A DNA stretch of 64,000 bases. It comes from an uncultured Bacteroidales bacterium. Its GTDB lineage: Bacteria; Bacteroidota; Bacteroidia; Bacteroidales; Bacteroidaceae. A model generated the notes under the pieces. That model ran no database searches, was not told the origin of the DNA, and was given only the letters and a program-made list of their open reading frames with translations. Below, piece by piece: positions 42,713-50,214 of this stretch; the stretch's first letter is position 1, and each line of letters starts with the position of its first letter. Both the position numbers and the translations under genes were made by a program. The DNA lies in NCBI GenBank assembly GCA_902786925.1, contig CADAEK010000009.1, forward strand, positions 1 to 64,000, in the 5' to 3' direction.

Positions 42713-44074
42713 TTATGCTTCACGTATCAGCCTTCTTGCTATCAACTCTACTACATCTACATTGACAGCATTGCCTAAAGCCTTCATCTTCTGGCCACGT
42801 GACAAGCCGTTGTAGTTCAGCTCCTGCATGGATTGGATACGAGCCGCTTCATTGTGAGAGATGTAGCGTCCCCACCGGAAGTCCTCCTCCACGTATGGCT
42901 TCCCTTTCTTGTCAAGCGCACCACCTGGAGGGTATGATACCCAAGGAAGAATCGGTGTGGCTGTGGAGCAGAGCGTGATGGTGGGCACATAATTCAACGA
43001 GCGGATACGAATGCCTGAGGGCCGCAACTGAATGACATGGTGACGGAAATCCCAATCTTGGTTGGTGCTCCACTCTAGCATACGCTGCGTGCGGGGATAC
43101 TTCAGGATTTTAGGCAACCAACCATCAATCCAATCTTTGTGCCGCTGATAGAGCTCACGGTTCTGGCGAATCAGCACCTTCTTGAACTCAGGATAAGTGT
43201 CTTCATACTTTGTCTTCCTCATGTAGAAAGGAAGCCCTGCAATGAGCTCTTCTCGTGTATCGCCTTCAATTACTCTACCGTAATTTCCTCGACGTCCTCG
43301 CAAGCGCTCAAGAGGCTGAAAGGCTGGAGGGGTATCTTCAAACTCGTAGTCTGCACCAAATTCCATCGTGAAGATGCAATGAGAAGGCATATAGCCATCA
43401 CGTTTCGTCACATTATAAACAAACTCTTGCCAAGCATCGAAGACGGGATGAAGGGCACGACGAACGGGCTGCAGGCCATCATTATCATAGGGATCCACAA
43501 TCGTGCGCACATCACTAATGACACGCTCATCAGGTTGCGGGAAGTGAAACTTACGCATACCGCTCATCCCTTCGGAATCACGCAACATACCAACAATGTA
43601 GAAGCGAGGACGATGCTGCGGTATACCAAACTCATGAGGCGAGAATACACGCCCGTCAATGTCATATCCCAACGCATCCAGCTTTTGCTGAATAACAGCC
43701 CAAGTGCGTCCTCCATCATGTCCTGGCAATGCCGACACGTTCTCTAAGAAGATGTAGGGCGGATGGTGGTATTTCAACACTCGACAAATCTCATCAAACA
43801 GGTTTCCACGTCCTAATTCGTCATCAAAGCCCTGTTTCTTGCCTGAGAAAGAAAAAGGCTGACAAGGGAAACCGCCACACAGAATATCATGAGCAGGAAT
43901 GTCCTTTACGTCTATCTGAGTAATGTCCCCATGAATAGGCACATCCGGAAAGTTCACCTGATATAGTTTGCGCAACTTAGGCTTAATCTCTGAAGCGAAG
44001 ACACATTCATGCCCTAAACGTGATAGGGCAAGATGAAAACCTCCAAGACCTGCAAACAAATCAACAAATTTCAT
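42713..44074 (-). CDS. DNA (cytosine-5) methyltransferase, solitary
   Basis: This 453-residue enzyme has m5C motifs in order: I DLFAGLGGFHLAL (residues 5-17), IV GGFPCQPFS with catalytic Cys71, VI ENV (111-113), VIII near QHRPRFYIVG, IX/X ending in KALGNAVNVDVVELIA. The target-recognition region between VIII and IX is long (about 190-395). No restriction endonuclease or Vsr repair gene lies in the neighbourhood, so it is an orphan methyltransferase for regulation or phage defence. The specificity cannot be read off. Its ATG overlaps the last 4 nt of the symporter gene upstream. Confidence 0.93.
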   Translation of the reverse strand: MKFVDLFAGLGGFHLALSRLGHECVFASEIKPKLRKLYQVNFPDVPIHGDITQIDVKDIPAHDILCGGFPCQPFSFSGKKQGFDDELGRGNLFDEICRVLKYHHPPYIFLENVSALPGHDGGRTWAVIQQKLDALGYDIDGRVFSPHEFGIPQHRPRFYIVGMLRDSEGMSGMRKFHFPQPDERVISDVRTIVDPYDNDGLQPVRRALHPVFDAWQEFVYNVTKRDGYMPSHCIFTMEFGADYEFEDTPPAFQPLERLRGRRGNYGRVIEGDTREELIAGLPFYMRKTKYEDTYPEFKKVLIRQNRELYQRHKDWIDGWLPKILKYPRTQRMLEWSTNQDWDFRHHVIQLRPSGIRIRSLNYVPTITLCSTATPILPWVSYPPGGALDKKGKPYVEEDFRWGRYISHNEAARIQSMQELNYNGLSRGQKMKALGNAVNVDVVELIARRLIREA

Positions 44075-45561
44075 TTCTTATCAATGTCTATAATCGGTGC
44101 CGCATCTGCGCTCTTTGCGATCCAACATAATCCGACAAACGTGAGCAGACCATTCAACATCAGCATCTCATACCCGAACTGATAACCAGTCGCTGCATGC
44201 ACCGCCGCATCTATCACATAGCAGATTACAGGTGATGCTATGACTACATACGGAACCAACCGCTCACGCAAGTGACGCTTGGTGAACATGCCAAAGGCAA
44301 AAAGGCCTAACAGAGGACCATACGTGTACGACACTAAAGTGTATATCAAATCCATCACACTTCCAGAACCTAACCAATGGAAAACGAGTGTGACAATGAC
44401 AAAAGCTACGAGCAAACCCAAATGCACTTGCTTTCGTATGTGCTCATCCTTCTCTCTGTGCAAGAGGTCTATACAGAAACTGGTAGTCAATGCTGTGAGT
44501 GCGGAATCGGCTGAAGAGAATGCGCTGGCAACGACTCCCAATGTGAAGAACACAAGACAAGCCTGCCCTAATGTGCCATCTAACACGATTTGAGCCAAAA
44601 GTGCATCCCCTTTCGCAGGCAAATCCAAACCTAACTGCTGATAAAGGAGAAGGAGAAGAATACCTAATGCAAGAAAAAGGAAGTTGACGGGTACAAAGAG
44701 CACACCATAGGAGCACATATCCTTCTGTGCACTACGGAGGTCTTTACACGTCAAGTTCTTTTGCATCATGTCCTGGTCCAATCCTGTCATCACAATCACC
44801 ACAAAGATGCCTGACAAGAATTGCTTCCAGAAATTTTGCTTAGAGGAGAAGTCATCCCACTCAAAGATACGTGCATGAGGATCATTCCATACTGCTGAGA
44901 ATGCTTCCGCGAAACTAAAATCCAACAACTCTGCCACACGCATCAATATCAACAAAAGCGCCAATAACAAACATGCCGTTTGCAACACATCTGTCCACAC
45001 CAACGTACGAATACCACCTCTACGTGTGTAGAGCCAGATAAGCAGCAACGCCACTATCACAATCAGCGCGTAAGGAAGTTTAATGGTGTCTGACAAGCAG
45101 TTCTGAAGAATCTCACAGACAACATAGAATTTCGCAGCAGCACCCAAGAGTTTACTCAAGATAAAGAAAGAAGCTCCCGTCTTATAACTGACGCGACCCA
45201 AACGGTGATGAAGATACGTGTAAATAGATGTGAGCCGGTGCCGATAATACAAAGGCAGCAATACAAAAGCCACCACAACATAACCAACCACAAAGCCAAG
45301 GCACATCTGCAAGTAAGTCATATCAGTGCCCATCACCCATCCTGGCACACCAATAAAGGTTAAACCAGAAATGCTGGCACCAATCATGCCAAAAGCAACC
45401 AATGGCCACGGAGACTGACGATTGCCACTAAAAAACATCGCATTACCATCGCCCTTCTCTTCATCACCTTTTATGCCTTTCAGTCTTCCACGTCGCTCTA
45501 CCCAACGAGACAGCAACAGCAGAACGCCAAAGTATAATATGATGGTACCTATAACAATCAT
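44071..45561 (-). CDS. Sodium:solute symporter (SSS family)
   Basis: This 496-residue protein has about 13 membrane helices and SSS-type segments: FGMIGASISGLTFIGVPGWV (about 57-76), where the family's Na+-site residues fall, and FTLGVVASAFSSADSALTAL (about 333-352). It imports a sugar, organic acid or amino acid with sodium; substrate unknown. It overlaps the methyltransferase gene by 4 nt downstream, and lies 42 nt after the double histidine kinase, so all three could form one transcript starting near 50240. Confidence 0.9.
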   Translation of the reverse strand: MIVIGTIILYFGVLLLLSRWVERRGRLKGIKGDEEKGDGNAMFFSGNRQSPWPLVAFGMIGASISGLTFIGVPGWVMGTDMTYLQMCLGFVVGYVVVAFVLLPLYYRHRLTSIYTYLHHRLGRVSYKTGASFFILSKLLGAAAKFYVVCEILQNCLSDTIKLPYALIVIVALLLIWLYTRRGGIRTLVWTDVLQTACLLLALLLILMRVAELLDFSFAEAFSAVWNDPHARIFEWDDFSSKQNFWKQFLSGIFVVIVMTGLDQDMMQKNLTCKDLRSAQKDMCSYGVLFVPVNFLFLALGILLLLLYQQLGLDLPAKGDALLAQIVLDGTLGQACLVFFTLGVVASAFSSADSALTALTTSFCIDLLHREKDEHIRKQVHLGLLVAFVIVTLVFHWLGSGSVMDLIYTLVSYTYGPLLGLFAFGMFTKRHLRERLVPYVVIASPVICYVIDAAVHAATGYQFGYEMLMLNGLLTFVGLCWIAKSADAAPIIDIDKK

Positions 45562-45603: not shown

Positions 45604-48600
45604 TCAAGAGGAAGCCTCGTTTTCCAACTCCTCCAAAGTCTTCAATATACCGTTTCCATAAAGTGAGAACTTCGAACCAAAGCCAGGCTTACTCTCCACA
45701 TCCAACTTCAAGTCCATACCTTCAGCCAGCTTTCGAGCCACGTGCAAGCCTAAGCCAAGTCCAGGGATGAAACCATTATCTTTCCAGAAGAGTCCAAATG
45801 CCAACTGCTGCTTTTCACGTGGAATACCACAACCGGTATCAGACACGAAGAGTTCCACTTCGTCACTGTTCAGATGGTAAGTCAAACCCACAATGATGTG
45901 CCCTCGTTTTGTAAACTTAATGGCATTATTGACCAACTGGCTCAAGATGTACTTCACGCGCATTCTGTCGTTATTCATCCGCACACCCTTTTGAACAGCC
46001 TGCATATAGAGAGTGACTCCATTAGGAACCAAATCAGTCCAATCAGCCACCACCTCTTGAATCAAAGCAGCAGGGTCAAACTCTTCCTTCACATACTGAA
46101 TACGTCCACTCTCAATACGAGAGAACATCAAGATATCTTCAATCATGGCAGACAAACTTGTGTTGTTTGCCTTGATAATCTTAGCATATTCTGCCAGTTC
46201 TTCAGGCGTGAACGAGTCAACAGGCATGCCCACAATCACATCGCTGAAGCCCACTACCGCATTCAAAGGGGTACGGATCTCATGACTAATCGTTGTCAAG
46301 AAGTCCTCCTTCTGCCTTGCCTCTTCTGCAAGGTTCATCGCCAGACGCAAATCCTTCTCATATTGCTTAGCCTCATCAATATTGATAAGAATACCATCCA
46401 CATGCTTAGTGTGCTCCTTGTTCTCGAATATAACCACAAAACGCAATTGCCACCAACGATATTCGCCATCCACATTCGCGTAAATCTCATAGTCATGTGT
46501 ACCTACAATCTCTATGGCCTGCAGAATAAGCGGTATATCATTTGAATAGTCAGGATGGATGTGAGAGATAATATCCTTCAAGTTATCCTCAGTACGCACA
46601 GAGCGGCTATCAGCACCGTGCAAAGCCATCTGGCGGATTTCAGCCCTCCGTTTCACATCGGCAATCAATTCATGCACATGGCGGTCTTTCCAAGCCTGCA
46701 ACACCAGGATGATAGCGCCACAACCCAAAATAAAGACGCCAACAATCAGAATCCACGTCACATAATTATAAAGAGGAGAAATCTTCTCTATTGGAGCACC
46801 CACAATGGTAAAGCGGCCACTATAATCACTATACTTCAAGCCCAGCTGCTGCATGGCCTGATAATCCATGTAATAATTCTTTTGGTGAGCGAGACCGACA
46901 AATGAAGATAGGTCGGCTCCCATCAACACCTCAGAAGCCACACGTGCCAAATCTGTCGCTATGGTCGCATAGTCAGCGAAGTAGCCACACAAATATTTCC
47001 CTCGTCCATCAGCAAAACCGGCTTTCACTGCTGTAAACTGCGGTCGTCCAGTCTTGTCTGCAATCATCGAGCTGTACAAGTCATGCTTCACCACCAAAGA
47101 AGGATACTTCCATGAGTGGATATAAATCTTACGCAGATTCTCATAACCCTCATCACGAGCATACAAGTTCTGCTTTGTGTTTCGTTCAGGGTCAGCAGCA
47201 GAAAACGTCAGCACCATCACACTATCCTTCCATATTGTCTGGAATCTCTCCGTTGAAAGATCATCAATATGGAAATCTGTATTGTCCATATAAGGCGGAC
47301 GGTTAATTGCTTGTCGGAGCTCATTGCGGATAAGAGAGTCCTGGTAGAAATAATCCAACTCTATTTCCACACAATTCTTGCCCGTCATCTCCACTGCCAA
47401 GTTGATGTTCGTGCAATAGTCAATGGGGTCGTTTATGACCACGATGTTCTTATGCCTTCTGATTTTGTCCCATTCGGGATGGTGCAAACCACCAAAAATA
47501 ACAGGCACAGAATCCATATCATCTAACATCCCTAAATCTTGCCAAGCAATAAAGTCGTGAGCTGCACGGTCTCCTTCTGTCATCATCACGTCAGGAATCC
47601 ATCCCTCCTTCATCAGTGAATCCCTCAGTTCCAAGTGCTTTTTATAGGTTTCACCTGCAGGGTCCTCTAAGGCAAGATACAGATGGCGCACATCCACATC
47701 GATTCCATTATTACGGAAACCCTTCAGCAAATTCTCATTGAAGCCACGATATGCAGGCAATTCTTTCTCATAACTATGGAACACCAGCACGCGCGCTTTT
47801 CTATCCAAAACCTGTTTCGGTGCTTTTGAACAAGAGGTAGATGCCAAAGCGCCCCAACCCAACGTGAGTACCAACAGCAGACATTGCACAACGCGCATAA
47901 GACGGAAATAGAACTTGCTGCCTTTGCCTACTTCACTTTCCACGCCGATTGTACCACCTTGCTTTTCGATGATGGTCTTACTGATGTTCAATCCCAGTCC
48001 CGTTCCACGGTCCGTCTCGTTCACCTTCACATAGCGTTCAAACAACTGAGCCTGCTTCTCTGGTGCCACACCAATACCCGTGTCTTTCACATACACTTCT
48101 ATCTCATCAGAATTCTCTGCCATGTGCTTCCATCCCAATGTGATGCTGCCTTCAGTAGTAAACTTAAACGCATTGCTCAAGAAGTTGTTCACCACCTGCT
48201 TCGTACGAGTCATATCTATGTTCACCGTCTCATCAGGCTCATCCATCTCCAACAAGAACTGCAAGTGAGTAGGCGCAATAATGTAGTTGGTCTTGTAACA
48301 GTCGTTCACCAACTTCTGTACCGACACTGGCTTCTGGATAATCTCCAAGTCGCCTGTCTCTATCTGAGCTTTCTCCATCACACTGTCAATCATATTCAAA
48401 ATCATGTCGGTGTTCTGATGGATAATCTCGGCATATTGCTCACGCTCTCCTTCCTCGAATGTCATGCCCGGCGTGGTGAGCATCGTAGAGAAACCTGTCA
48501 CAGCGCCCAGTGGCGTACGCAAGTCGTGACTGATATTGGCCAAGAAGTTTTCCTTCAGTGCCACTTGACTCGCCAATATTTGTGCCTGTTCCAACTGCTC

Positions 48601-50214
48601 CTCCGTCTGCTTTTTCTGGTCGATATTCATCAGCAAGCCATACAGTTCTCCCGTACGAGCCGACTCGGCTGTAGCTGTATAAGTAGCTTCTGTCCAAAAC
48701 CACCGCTTGCCACCATCAGGTGTAAGACGCAGACGAACAGTCTTCTTGCCGCGCTGGTTGCGGAAGTTCTTGAGAAAATTAAATGACGCTTTACTGTCTT
48801 CATGCACACACTTTTCCATCTGCTCCAGCGTGAACGTATTGGATGGCAACTCGAAGTAGTTTGCAAATTGAGGACTGAACGAAAACTCATCACCGCTCAG
48901 CACCCAAAGAGTGTCCTTGGCGTTCGAGAACATCAAGTCATGCACCTTCTCCTCATACTGCAACTCCTCCACCAATGCCATCTGCCCACGCCATTTCCAA
49001 TGCTGCATAAAGCGGAACACAGCATAAATCAACGCACCAATCAATATCAGCAGCAATGCCACCTCAAGGGTGAACTGTCCCGGATATTCCAAATAATAAG
49101 GCACGTTCACCAATTTGCAGTATTTGCTAATTACACTATAAGGAAGCGTCGGGAACACCTTCTGCAAGGCACGCCAGTCGATATAGTAGTCACATGAATG
49201 CTGGCTAATTGGCAAGGCACGCGGACGTTCACCTCTAAGAATACGAACCGCATAGCCCACCTGATCCTGCACCTGAGTTTCGGTACCAGTAAAGTAACCA
49301 CCCACAAACTGCGGATTTTGTGGATTGTTGAATGATTCACGAATACAAGTGAACTGCGGGTGCACCGTCAAATCGATGAGACTATTGCTGTAAATGTCTT
49401 TCTTCACTTGCATGTGCCACATACGGCGGGCATTCTGATAGAAGAAAGCAGTCCTCTTCCGGCTTGCACTCTCATCTTCTTCTAAGCCATGGTTCATATA
49501 GGGACTGCCACATGAAACAAAGTGCACAGCGGCCACACCTGGGTGGTTCTTGCGCATATACTCATCTGATATTTCAGGAAGATGGAAATCTGAATTGTTC
49601 ACAAATCGAGTTGAATCAGCCAGTTCTTCCGCAAACTGTGCTCTCAAGCGATTATCCATATCACTATAATCCAACTCAACAGTAATATTCTGCGTCTGAG
49701 CCACACGCATGATACCACTGATATTGCGTCCCAAATCAATGCGGGACTCATATCCTGTCATCAGTGGGAAGTTAGGCAGCGAGTCGCGCAACAAGGAGTT
49801 CACACCGGCAAACACCACAGGTGTTTTCTGGAAGATAGAATCATGACGCATATGTTTCAGAACCCACTCCACAATGGGGTCGTCATTCAGCAGAATCACT
49901 TCTGGCTTCCATGCCTTGATAGCCTCGGCGTACCCCGGCCAATCATTCATGGAGAACACCTCATCCGGACGGGACACCATACGAGCGTAAATATGGCGCA
50001 CTTCCACATTCAGTCCGCTTTCCTTAAAAGCTTTGTTCATACAATTGGTAAAGAGTTCATTCTCCTCACCAATACTGTCCCACGAGTGAATGACCATCAC
50101 TCGATGCGGTGGTTCAACACGCCTAATAGAAGGAACCTGGTTGCATGCACCCAGAACAACAAGCATTAAAATAAAAGACAAAAAGGTCAGTAAAAGAATA
50201 TGATGCTTTTTCAT
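45604..50214 (-). CDS. Tandem fusion of two complete sensor histidine kinases
   Basis: One continuous frame of about 1,536 residues. Half 1 (1-772): lipoprotein-like signal (LGAC, Cys24), periplasmic ABC-substrate-binding-like domain (about 35-375), helix (383-402), PAS-like domain (about 420-540), HisKA with His563 in NISHDLRTP, HATPase with NAFKFT and GTGLGLNI. Half 2 (773-1,536) repeats the order: signal-like segment with LASTSC (Cys795), periplasmic domain (about 805-1,140), helix (about 1,152-1,172), PAS-like domain, His1311 in TISHEIRTP, HATPase with NNAIKFT and GLGLGLHV. Neither half has a receiver or DNA-binding domain. An in-frame ATG (47896-47898) begins half 2 and could start a separate product. 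A sequencing error that lost a stop cannot be excluded. Start ATG 50214 is chosen over 50226 for the signal peptide. Confidence 0.85.
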   Translation of the reverse strand: MKKHHILLLTFLSFILMLVVLGACNQVPSIRRVEPPHRVMVIHSWDSIGEENELFTNCMNKAFKESGLNVEVRHIYARMVSRPDEVFSMNDWPGYAEAIKAWKPEVILLNDDPIVEWVLKHMRHDSIFQKTPVVFAGVNSLLRDSLPNFPLMTGYESRIDLGRNISGIMRVAQTQNITVELDYSDMDNRLRAQFAEELADSTRFVNNSDFHLPEISDEYMRKNHPGVAAVHFVSCGSPYMNHGLEEDESASRKRTAFFYQNARRMWHMQVKKDIYSNSLIDLTVHPQFTCIRESFNNPQNPQFVGGYFTGTETQVQDQVGYAVRILRGERPRALPISQHSCDYYIDWRALQKVFPTLPYSVISKYCKLVNVPYYLEYPGQFTLEVALLLILIGALIYAVFRFMQHWKWRGQMALVEELQYEEKVHDLMFSNAKDTLWVLSGDEFSFSPQFANYFELPSNTFTLEQMEKCVHEDSKASFNFLKNFRNQRGKKTVRLRLTPDGGKRWFWTEATYTATAESARTGELYGLLMNIDQKKQTEEQLEQAQILASQVALKENFLANISHDLRTPLGAVTGFSTMLTTPGMTFEEGEREQYAEIIHQNTDMILNMIDSVMEKAQIETGDLEIIQKPVSVQKLVNDCYKTNYIIAPTHLQFLLEMDEPDETVNIDMTRTKQVVNNFLSNAFKFTTEGSITLGWKHMAENSDEIEVYVKDTGIGVAPEKQAQLFERYVKVNETDRGTGLGLNISKTIIEKQGGTIGVESEVGKGSKFYFRLMRVVQCLLLVLTLGWGALASTSCSKAPKQVLDRKARVLVFHSYEKELPAYRGFNENLLKGFRNNGIDVDVRHLYLALEDPAGETYKKHLELRDSLMKEGWIPDVMMTEGDRAAHDFIAWQDLGMLDDMDSVPVIFGGLHHPEWDKIRRHKNIVVINDPIDYCTNINLAVEMTGKNCVEIELDYFYQDSLIRNELRQAINRPPYMDNTDFHIDDLSTERFQTIWKDSVMVLTFSAADPERNTKQNLYARDEGYENLRKIYIHSWKYPSLVVKHDLYSSMIADKTGRPQFTAVKAGFADGRGKYLCGYFADYATIATDLARVASEVLMGADLSSFVGLAHQKNYYMDYQAMQQLGLKYSDYSGRFTIVGAPIEKISPLYNYVTWILIVGVFILGCGAIILVLQAWKDRHVHELIADVKRRAEIRQMALHGADSRSVRTEDNLKDIISHIHPDYSNDIPLILQAIEIVGTHDYEIYANVDGEYRWWQLRFVVIFENKEHTKHVDGILINIDEAKQYEKDLRLAMNLAEEARQKEDFLTTISHEIRTPLNAVVGFSDVIVGMPVDSFTPEELAEYAKIIKANNTSLSAMIEDILMFSRIESGRIQYVKEEFDPAALIQEVVADWTDLVPNGVTLYMQAVQKGVRMNNDRMRVKYILSQLVNNAIKFTKRGHIIVGLTYHLNSDEVELFVSDTGCGIPREKQQLAFGLFWKDNGFIPGLGLGLHVARKLAEGMDLKLDVESKPGFGSKFSLYGNGILKTLEELENEASS

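Follow-up and report, generated by a model that had tools for sequence, protein, structure and literature searches.

A double sensor kinase gene of Bacteroidaceae with a conserved inner lipobox, a probable polyprotein of two lipid-anchored histidine kinases

Two membrane proteins can be made from one bacterial reading frame: the Bradyrhizobium FbcH polyprotein carries cytochrome b and cytochrome c1 in a single frame and has an inner signal sequence at which signal peptidase separates the two. Among sensor kinases, pairs of different partners are represented by GacS and RetS, which are separate proteins with no fusion between them. Of this pair, one kinase is reported to act on the autophosphorylation of the other (PMC4866733). 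Here we describe a gene of an uncultured member of the Bacteroidales in which two different sensor kinases follow each other in one open frame. It lies on the reverse strand of the 64,000-nucleotide stretch of contig CADAEK010000009.1 that was analyzed (hereafter the window), and its parts are listed in the table.

The 1536-residue product contains two HisKA and two HATPase_c stretches detected with Pfam, and is thus a HisKA-type sensor histidine kinase twice over; a receiver domain (Response_reg) is absent from it by the same search, so it is not a hybrid histidine kinase. Both phospho-accepting histidines, His563 and His1311, are invariant in a 14-row alignment (columns 544 and 1292, an offset of 19) and present in 29/29 rows of a larger alignment of fused proteins, in which the window gene is counted among the rows. 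The earlier note had described two complete kinases in tandem, each with a sensor and a PAS-like domain. The tandem arrangement of two sensor/HisKA/HATPase units in one open frame is as described; the PAS-like domains fare unevenly, as PAS_3 in the second half falls just under its cut-off, and the first half gives no Pfam PAS match. The membrane segments and the PAS-like region of the first half were assigned by inspection. With NCBIfam, the best 25 of 88 families were general kinase models, all under their cut-offs, and PADLOC returned no match for the protein.

Table 1. Positions of the fused gene, its parts and two neighboring genes in the window
Feature	Residues	Positions	Strand	Basis or remark
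Fused gene HK-A/HK-B	1536 aa	45604..50214	(-)	open frame
HK-A N-terminal lipoprotein signal peptide	1-23	50146..50214	(-)	hydrophobic segment preceding Cys24
HK-A lipobox cysteine	Cys24	50143..50145	(-)	one of two invariant Cys columns, 29 rows
Periplasmic sensor A, substrate-binding-protein fold	~25-378	49081..50142	(-)	AlphaFold2 and Foldseek
HK-A transmembrane segment	~383-403	49006..49068	(-)	hydrophobic block, by eye
HK-A membrane-to-HisKA region	~425-545	48580..48942	(-)	PAS-like by position
HK-A HisKA	with His563	48352..48555	(-)	PF00512, 56.9 bits; His invariant
HK-A HATPase_c	668-772	47899..48213	(-)	PF02518
Putative inner lipoprotein-type signal peptide	773-794, last is Ser794	47833..47898	(-)	Ser-Cys in 36/36 named fused loci
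Proposed Lgt/LspA site and mature HK-B N-terminus	Cys795	47830..47832	(-)	invariant 29/29; 36/36 named loci
Periplasmic sensor B, substrate-binding-protein fold	~796-1145	46780..47829	(-)	AlphaFold2 and Foldseek
HK-B transmembrane segment	~1150-1172	46699..46767	(-)	hydrophobic block, by eye
HK-B PAS_3	1211-1275	46390..46584	(-)	PF08447, 24.8 bits, below the 25.6 cut-off
HK-B HisKA	with His1311	46105..46314	(-)	PF00512, 64.4 bits
HK-B HATPase_c	~1413-1518	45661..45978	(-)	second PF02518 stretch; limits from alignment
Sodium:solute symporter (SSF)		44071..45561	(-)	PF00474; 42 bases downstream
C5 cytosine DNA methylase		42713..44074	(-)	PF00145; overlaps SSF gene

The two sensors had been called ABC-substrate-binding-like, which turns out to be right by fold and to have no counterpart at the level of sequence matches. 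Pfam gives none for the sensors in the full protein at E 0.1 and, at a limit of E 10, stray matches only for a set of 14 sensor B sequences; ABC_sub_bind (PF04392) appears in neither search, and a sequence comparison of sensor B with solved structures returned nothing at E 10. AlphaFold2 models of sensor A (residues 32–385) and sensor B (residues 809–1150) have mean pLDDT values of 92.2 and 92.3, respectively. The best Foldseek match of sensor A is 6hnj, and those of sensor B are 3lkv and 3lft, each at TM 0.60; these three, 3lft with bound L-Trp, are the top matches of both sensors (TM 0.55–0.61), and we take them to be members of PF04392. Since both models resemble CD0873/3lft-type substrate-binding proteins (TM ~0.60), the sensors are ABC-substrate-binding-like by fold. 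Sensors A and B are unlike in sequence, and two ligands, one per sensor, are therefore likely.

The search for relatives covered 61 genomes, i.e., the source genome, 36 others of its genus and 24 others of the order, and a full-length fused frame free of stop codons was found in 29 of them, the source genome included. Sensor B occurs in 35 of 45 genomes of the genus and lies within fused frames of 1530–1802 residues in all 35, so that no split form is present among these genomes. A set of named loci, many of which come from uncultured bacteria in rumen or other gut samples according to their record titles, comprises 36 fused and 6 split cases (42 in total), and as it overlaps partly with the 61-genome set (L069 begins like L010), the counts of the two sets are not additive. 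The nearest of these loci is L069 (isolate RUG418), whose sensors B and A are 99% and 95% identical, respectively, to those of the window gene, and identity between fused orthologues falls to 46–47%. A stop codon or frameshift at the junction had been an initial concern; because the stop-free full-length frame recurs in many independent genomes, an assembly or frameshift error is ruled out, and the fusion is real.

The segment between the two halves has a strictly conserved outer end. In the 29-row alignment, cysteine is invariant at no more than two columns, 24 and 795, which occupy corresponding positions in the halves, and each cysteine closes a signal-peptide-like hydrophobic stretch. In the 14-row alignment, no column within residues 768–825 is invariant except Ser794 and Cys795, and Ser-Cys is found at the inner site in all 36 named fused loci. 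It is encoded there by four serine codons (used 13, 10, 8 and 5 times) and two cysteine codons (20 and 16 times), and the constraint therefore acts on the protein. The second half of every one of these proteins has the features of a lipoprotein, with lysine or arginine ahead of the inner hydrophobic stretch, glycine, alanine or serine at position -1, and the cysteine. The junction helix likewise ends in G/S-Cys in both of the fusions that lie outside the main fused clade (FCGC in L104 and LVSC in L115).

For comparison, 35 N-terminal lipoprotein-like sites and 47 inner controls consisting of a hydrophobic stretch plus a cysteine were examined. Glycine, alanine or serine directly precedes the cysteine in 27/35 of the former vs 12/47 of the latter, and a four-position lipobox score has medians of 2.53 and -1.15, respectively, with values of -0.69 to 7.09 at the inner sites. 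All 31 inner sites scored pass the threshold, yet so do 35/47 controls, and because of this poor separation the case rests on conservation instead. The PROSITE lipobox pattern disallows proline at -3; this residue was seen by eye in 17 of the 29 aligned inner sites vs 0/35 N-terminal lipoprotein-like sites, an atypical trait from which the site of the window gene, LASTSC, is free. The source genome encodes one frame each for LspA, Lgt and an S2P protease. The earlier note had the segment at 773–795 re-enter the membrane behind a cytoplasmic kinase domain, which is supported by the present data; residues 773–794 moreover look like a lipoprotein signal peptide and not just a re-entry helix.

The conservation of the inner lipobox speaks for a mature product that is cut and against a single chain. 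The reading that we favor, with a probability of about 0.6, is that the gene encodes a polyprotein, which Lgt and LspA would split into two lipid-anchored kinases that work as a heteromer. HK-A would be inserted and its kinase part made, after which residues 773–794 would re-insert from the cytoplasm to the periplasm behind HATPase-A. Lgt would then lipidate Cys795 and LspA would cut between Ser794 and Cys795, giving HK-A (24–794) and HK-B (795–1536), each lipid-anchored at its N terminus and crossing the membrane ahead of its kinase domain. Only a short linker separates HATPase-A from the inner helix, and cleavage by itself would therefore leave HATPase-A held at the membrane. An RseP-like S2P protease may free it by removing the signal-peptide remnant; E. 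coli RseP is reported to clear signal peptides (PMC8144685). HK-A and HK-B would assemble as a hetero-oligomer in a 1:1 ratio, in which the substrate-binding-protein-like domains would each sense a ligand of their own, and the phosphate would be passed to a response regulator encoded elsewhere. Cutting would both fix the strict 1:1 ratio and set the partners side by side for assembly of the heteromer. Several points weigh against this reading: the proline at -3 in many inner sites, the poor separation by the lipobox score, the membrane tether that HATPase-A would keep, and, in the comparisons below, two split HK-B proteins with no clear lipobox (L116 and L124) and the looseness of the SPase I-like class in the DUF5113 family, whose member L137 has no HisKA match.

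Alternatively, the 1536-residue protein may remain uncut, with the inner helix as a permanent span, the kinases as a covalent heterodimer, and Cys795 lipidated without cleavage or engaged in a disulfide or contact. The frame is open and conserved, the inner helix fits a span from cytoplasm to periplasm, and the proline at -3 in 17/29 sites may hinder cleavage; however, an invariant Ser-Cys at the outer end is not something that a mere membrane span requires, and it sits exactly where the split homologues have their lipobox, so that we regard an uncut protein as unlikely. Two products with separate starts, an alternative raised in the earlier note, would have the inner start close to 47898 and the continuous frame as a coincidence. 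They would fit the ATG that the window has at 47898 and the overlapping or adjacent starts of the split relatives. Among the 36 fused loci, however, only 18 have an in-frame ATG within the 20 codons concerned; 35 have ATG, GTG or TTG, and L098 has none of the three. With the genus lacking a split form (35/35 fused), a separate start as a general rule is rejected, and this explanation is highly improbable for the gene.

A second family of double-ATPase proteins bears on the choice between a cut and an uncut product. One member is encoded in the source genome at L137:29-3661 (C21:19028-22657). DUF5113 and HATPase_c each match it twice and HisKA does not; it has an inner signal peptide and adjoins a DUF5932 response regulator. 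DUF5113 was found in 123/151 genomes of the family searched, representing 18 of 22 genera and mostly with two matches, and the frames among the matches listed are 994–1525 residues long. Junctions were read in 53 genomes: 24 of the source genus (L182–L204, L205/L208), 12 of two other genera (L212–L223) and 17 in the series L227–L243; L224–L226 repeat earlier genomes and were left out. Of the 53 inner segments, 17 end in a lipobox, 32 in an SPase I-like site and 4 in neither clearly, the types being assigned partly by eye. The SPase I-like sites have Ala at -1 and often L, M or V at -3, a loosely defined class without a control set. By group, the counts of lipobox, SPase I-like and unclear ends are 1/22/1 in the source genus, 12/0/0 in L212–L223 and 4/10/3 in L227–L243, the single lipobox of the source genus being that of L198, against the rest. 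Glutamine directly follows the SPase I-like site in only 7/32; the Bacteroidetes Q-rule places it after the site in most SPase I substrates (PMC5837995).

Since one and the same place holds either a lipobox or an SPase I-like site, even within a genus, selection for cleavage explains the pattern best. This swap (L198 vs the rest) is easily explained by cleavage and counts against an uncut protein; among the indirect arguments that the product of the window gene is cut too, it would be the strongest. That paired kinases of Bacteroidaceae are in general made as cut polyproteins, by LspA in the HK-A/HK-B family and by LspA or SPase I, depending on lineage, in the DUF5113 family, has in our estimate slightly better than even odds.

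In other genera, the HK-A gene is immediately followed by the HK-B gene in the same order, and nearly all split halves begin with a lipoprotein signal peptide; among the split HK-B proteins, those of L116 and L124 are the exceptions, with no clear lipobox. Read by eye, the second gene of L104, L107, L109 and L110 is in the same frame with one stop codon between the genes; the stop of the first gene and the start of the second share an ATGA in L105, L108, L117, L119–L122, L124 and L129; and L116, L118 and L123 have a short gap or a start that is not clearly placed. A tree of 78 halves, built with a quick method and midpoint-rooted, included 15 hand-picked named fused loci and L106, left out the other 20 and the L110 pairs, and contains L101 split two residues late. 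The A rows and B rows form separate, well-supported clades whose inner order is largely mirrored. Strongly supported branches force three changes of the fused label among the A rows and three among the B rows, with fused proteins placed in the source genus, in the first pair of L104 and in L115. We infer that the split state is older and that fusion took place in the source genus and twice more, in the first L104 pair and in L115; three gains are our reading of three changes that can also be one gain and two losses.

The single in-frame stop between the genes in L104, L107, L109 and L110 makes fusion an easy mutation, which would suit an ordinary gene fusion with no functional meaning. Against this, the fusion persists in orthologues with as little as 46% identity, and 29/29 aligned rows retain both histidines and both lipobox cysteines; we consider this explanation improbable.

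The polyprotein reading includes a partnership of the two kinases, on which the split pairs are informative. Twenty complete pairs outside the genus were read by eye (L108 is cut and L110 was left out), and in 13 of them at least one partner lacks the histidine or the ATP-binding domain. Only one partner is affected in 11 of the 13, whereas both partners of the second pairs of L107 and L109 lack the histidine; losses are common to related loci, so there are fewer events than these counts. Within the genus, both halves keep the histidine in 29/29. The complementary loss of the histidine or the ATP-binding domain and the largely mirrored order of the two clades are indirect hints that A and B may function jointly as partners. 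The earlier note had proposed a fused, heterodimer-like sensor pair: the partnership of two different sensors is in line with adjacency, constant order and the losses in 13/20 pairs, but the single mature chain is at odds with the conserved inner lipobox.

Two A/B pairs lie in tandem in several loci (L104, L105, L107, L109 and L118, also L110); the ATPase domain is missing from the first A of these arrays, and the histidine is often lost in later members. In L115 and L117 (genus g26), the kinase motifs of HK-B are worn, with the histidine lost and the boxes of the ATP site altered, and these proteins are likely pseudokinase partners.

As had been remarked of the surroundings of the gene, there is no response regulator nearby: none of the six found in the 2.59-Mb source genome (92% complete, in 48 contigs) is on the contig of the window. 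One of the six, a lone 142-residue receiver (L134:3282-3710, C14 of the same genome), adjoins a gene with a TackOD1 domain, and no kinase was seen near it within a 7-kb stretch. This receiver is a candidate partner for orphan kinases; as partners of HK-A and HK-B, it and a 516-residue regulator frame on C19 are only candidates.

Upstream of the fused gene, on the same strand, is a gene of the MATE family, and the SSF gene on the other side possibly shares an operon with it. The SSF cluster is present in 26/42 named loci, on the same strand in 26/26 and directly downstream in 25/26, and the cluster of the C5 methylase in 26/42, in L092 on the opposite strand. Because the fused loci L094 and L096–L103 have neither, SSF and methylase are no essential part of the arrangement.

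If the polyprotein reading is true, bacteria process polyproteins of signaling enzymes with the lipoprotein signal peptidase, and perhaps with the ordinary one too. Fixed pairs of different kinases would then be common in a major gut family, and the existence of 'double kinases' of great length, in which a membrane helix comes behind an ATPase domain, would find an explanation. With DUF5113 in 123/151 family genomes, and present also in the control Bacteroides ihuae, the question should be testable in a tractable gut commensal. Among the matches listed in a literature search that lay largely outside subscription journals, none concerned an inner lipobox or the maturation of a kinase polyprotein. 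The domains themselves are known, and the proposed maturation is unusual.

The closest relatives of the window gene are the split HK-A/HK-B pairs of other Bacteroidaceae genera, which have the same sensor types, order and kinase domains and, nearly throughout, the lipoprotein signal peptide, but consist of two genes that overlap or lie close together; HK-B lacks the phospho-accepting histidine in 8 of the 20 pairs read (by eye). The DUF5113 (PF17140) double-ATPase proteins of Bacteroidaceae share with it the single frame and a signal-peptide-like inner segment right behind the first ATPase domain; they differ in their unrelated N-terminal parts and in an inner site that may be a lipobox or SPase I-like, and the representative in the source genome differs further by its missing HisKA match and its adjoining DUF5932 response regulator. 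GacS and RetS resemble the present pair as two different interacting sensor kinases, but are not fused. The FbcH polyprotein differs in that SPase I makes the cut and that the proteins released are respiratory proteins instead of kinases.
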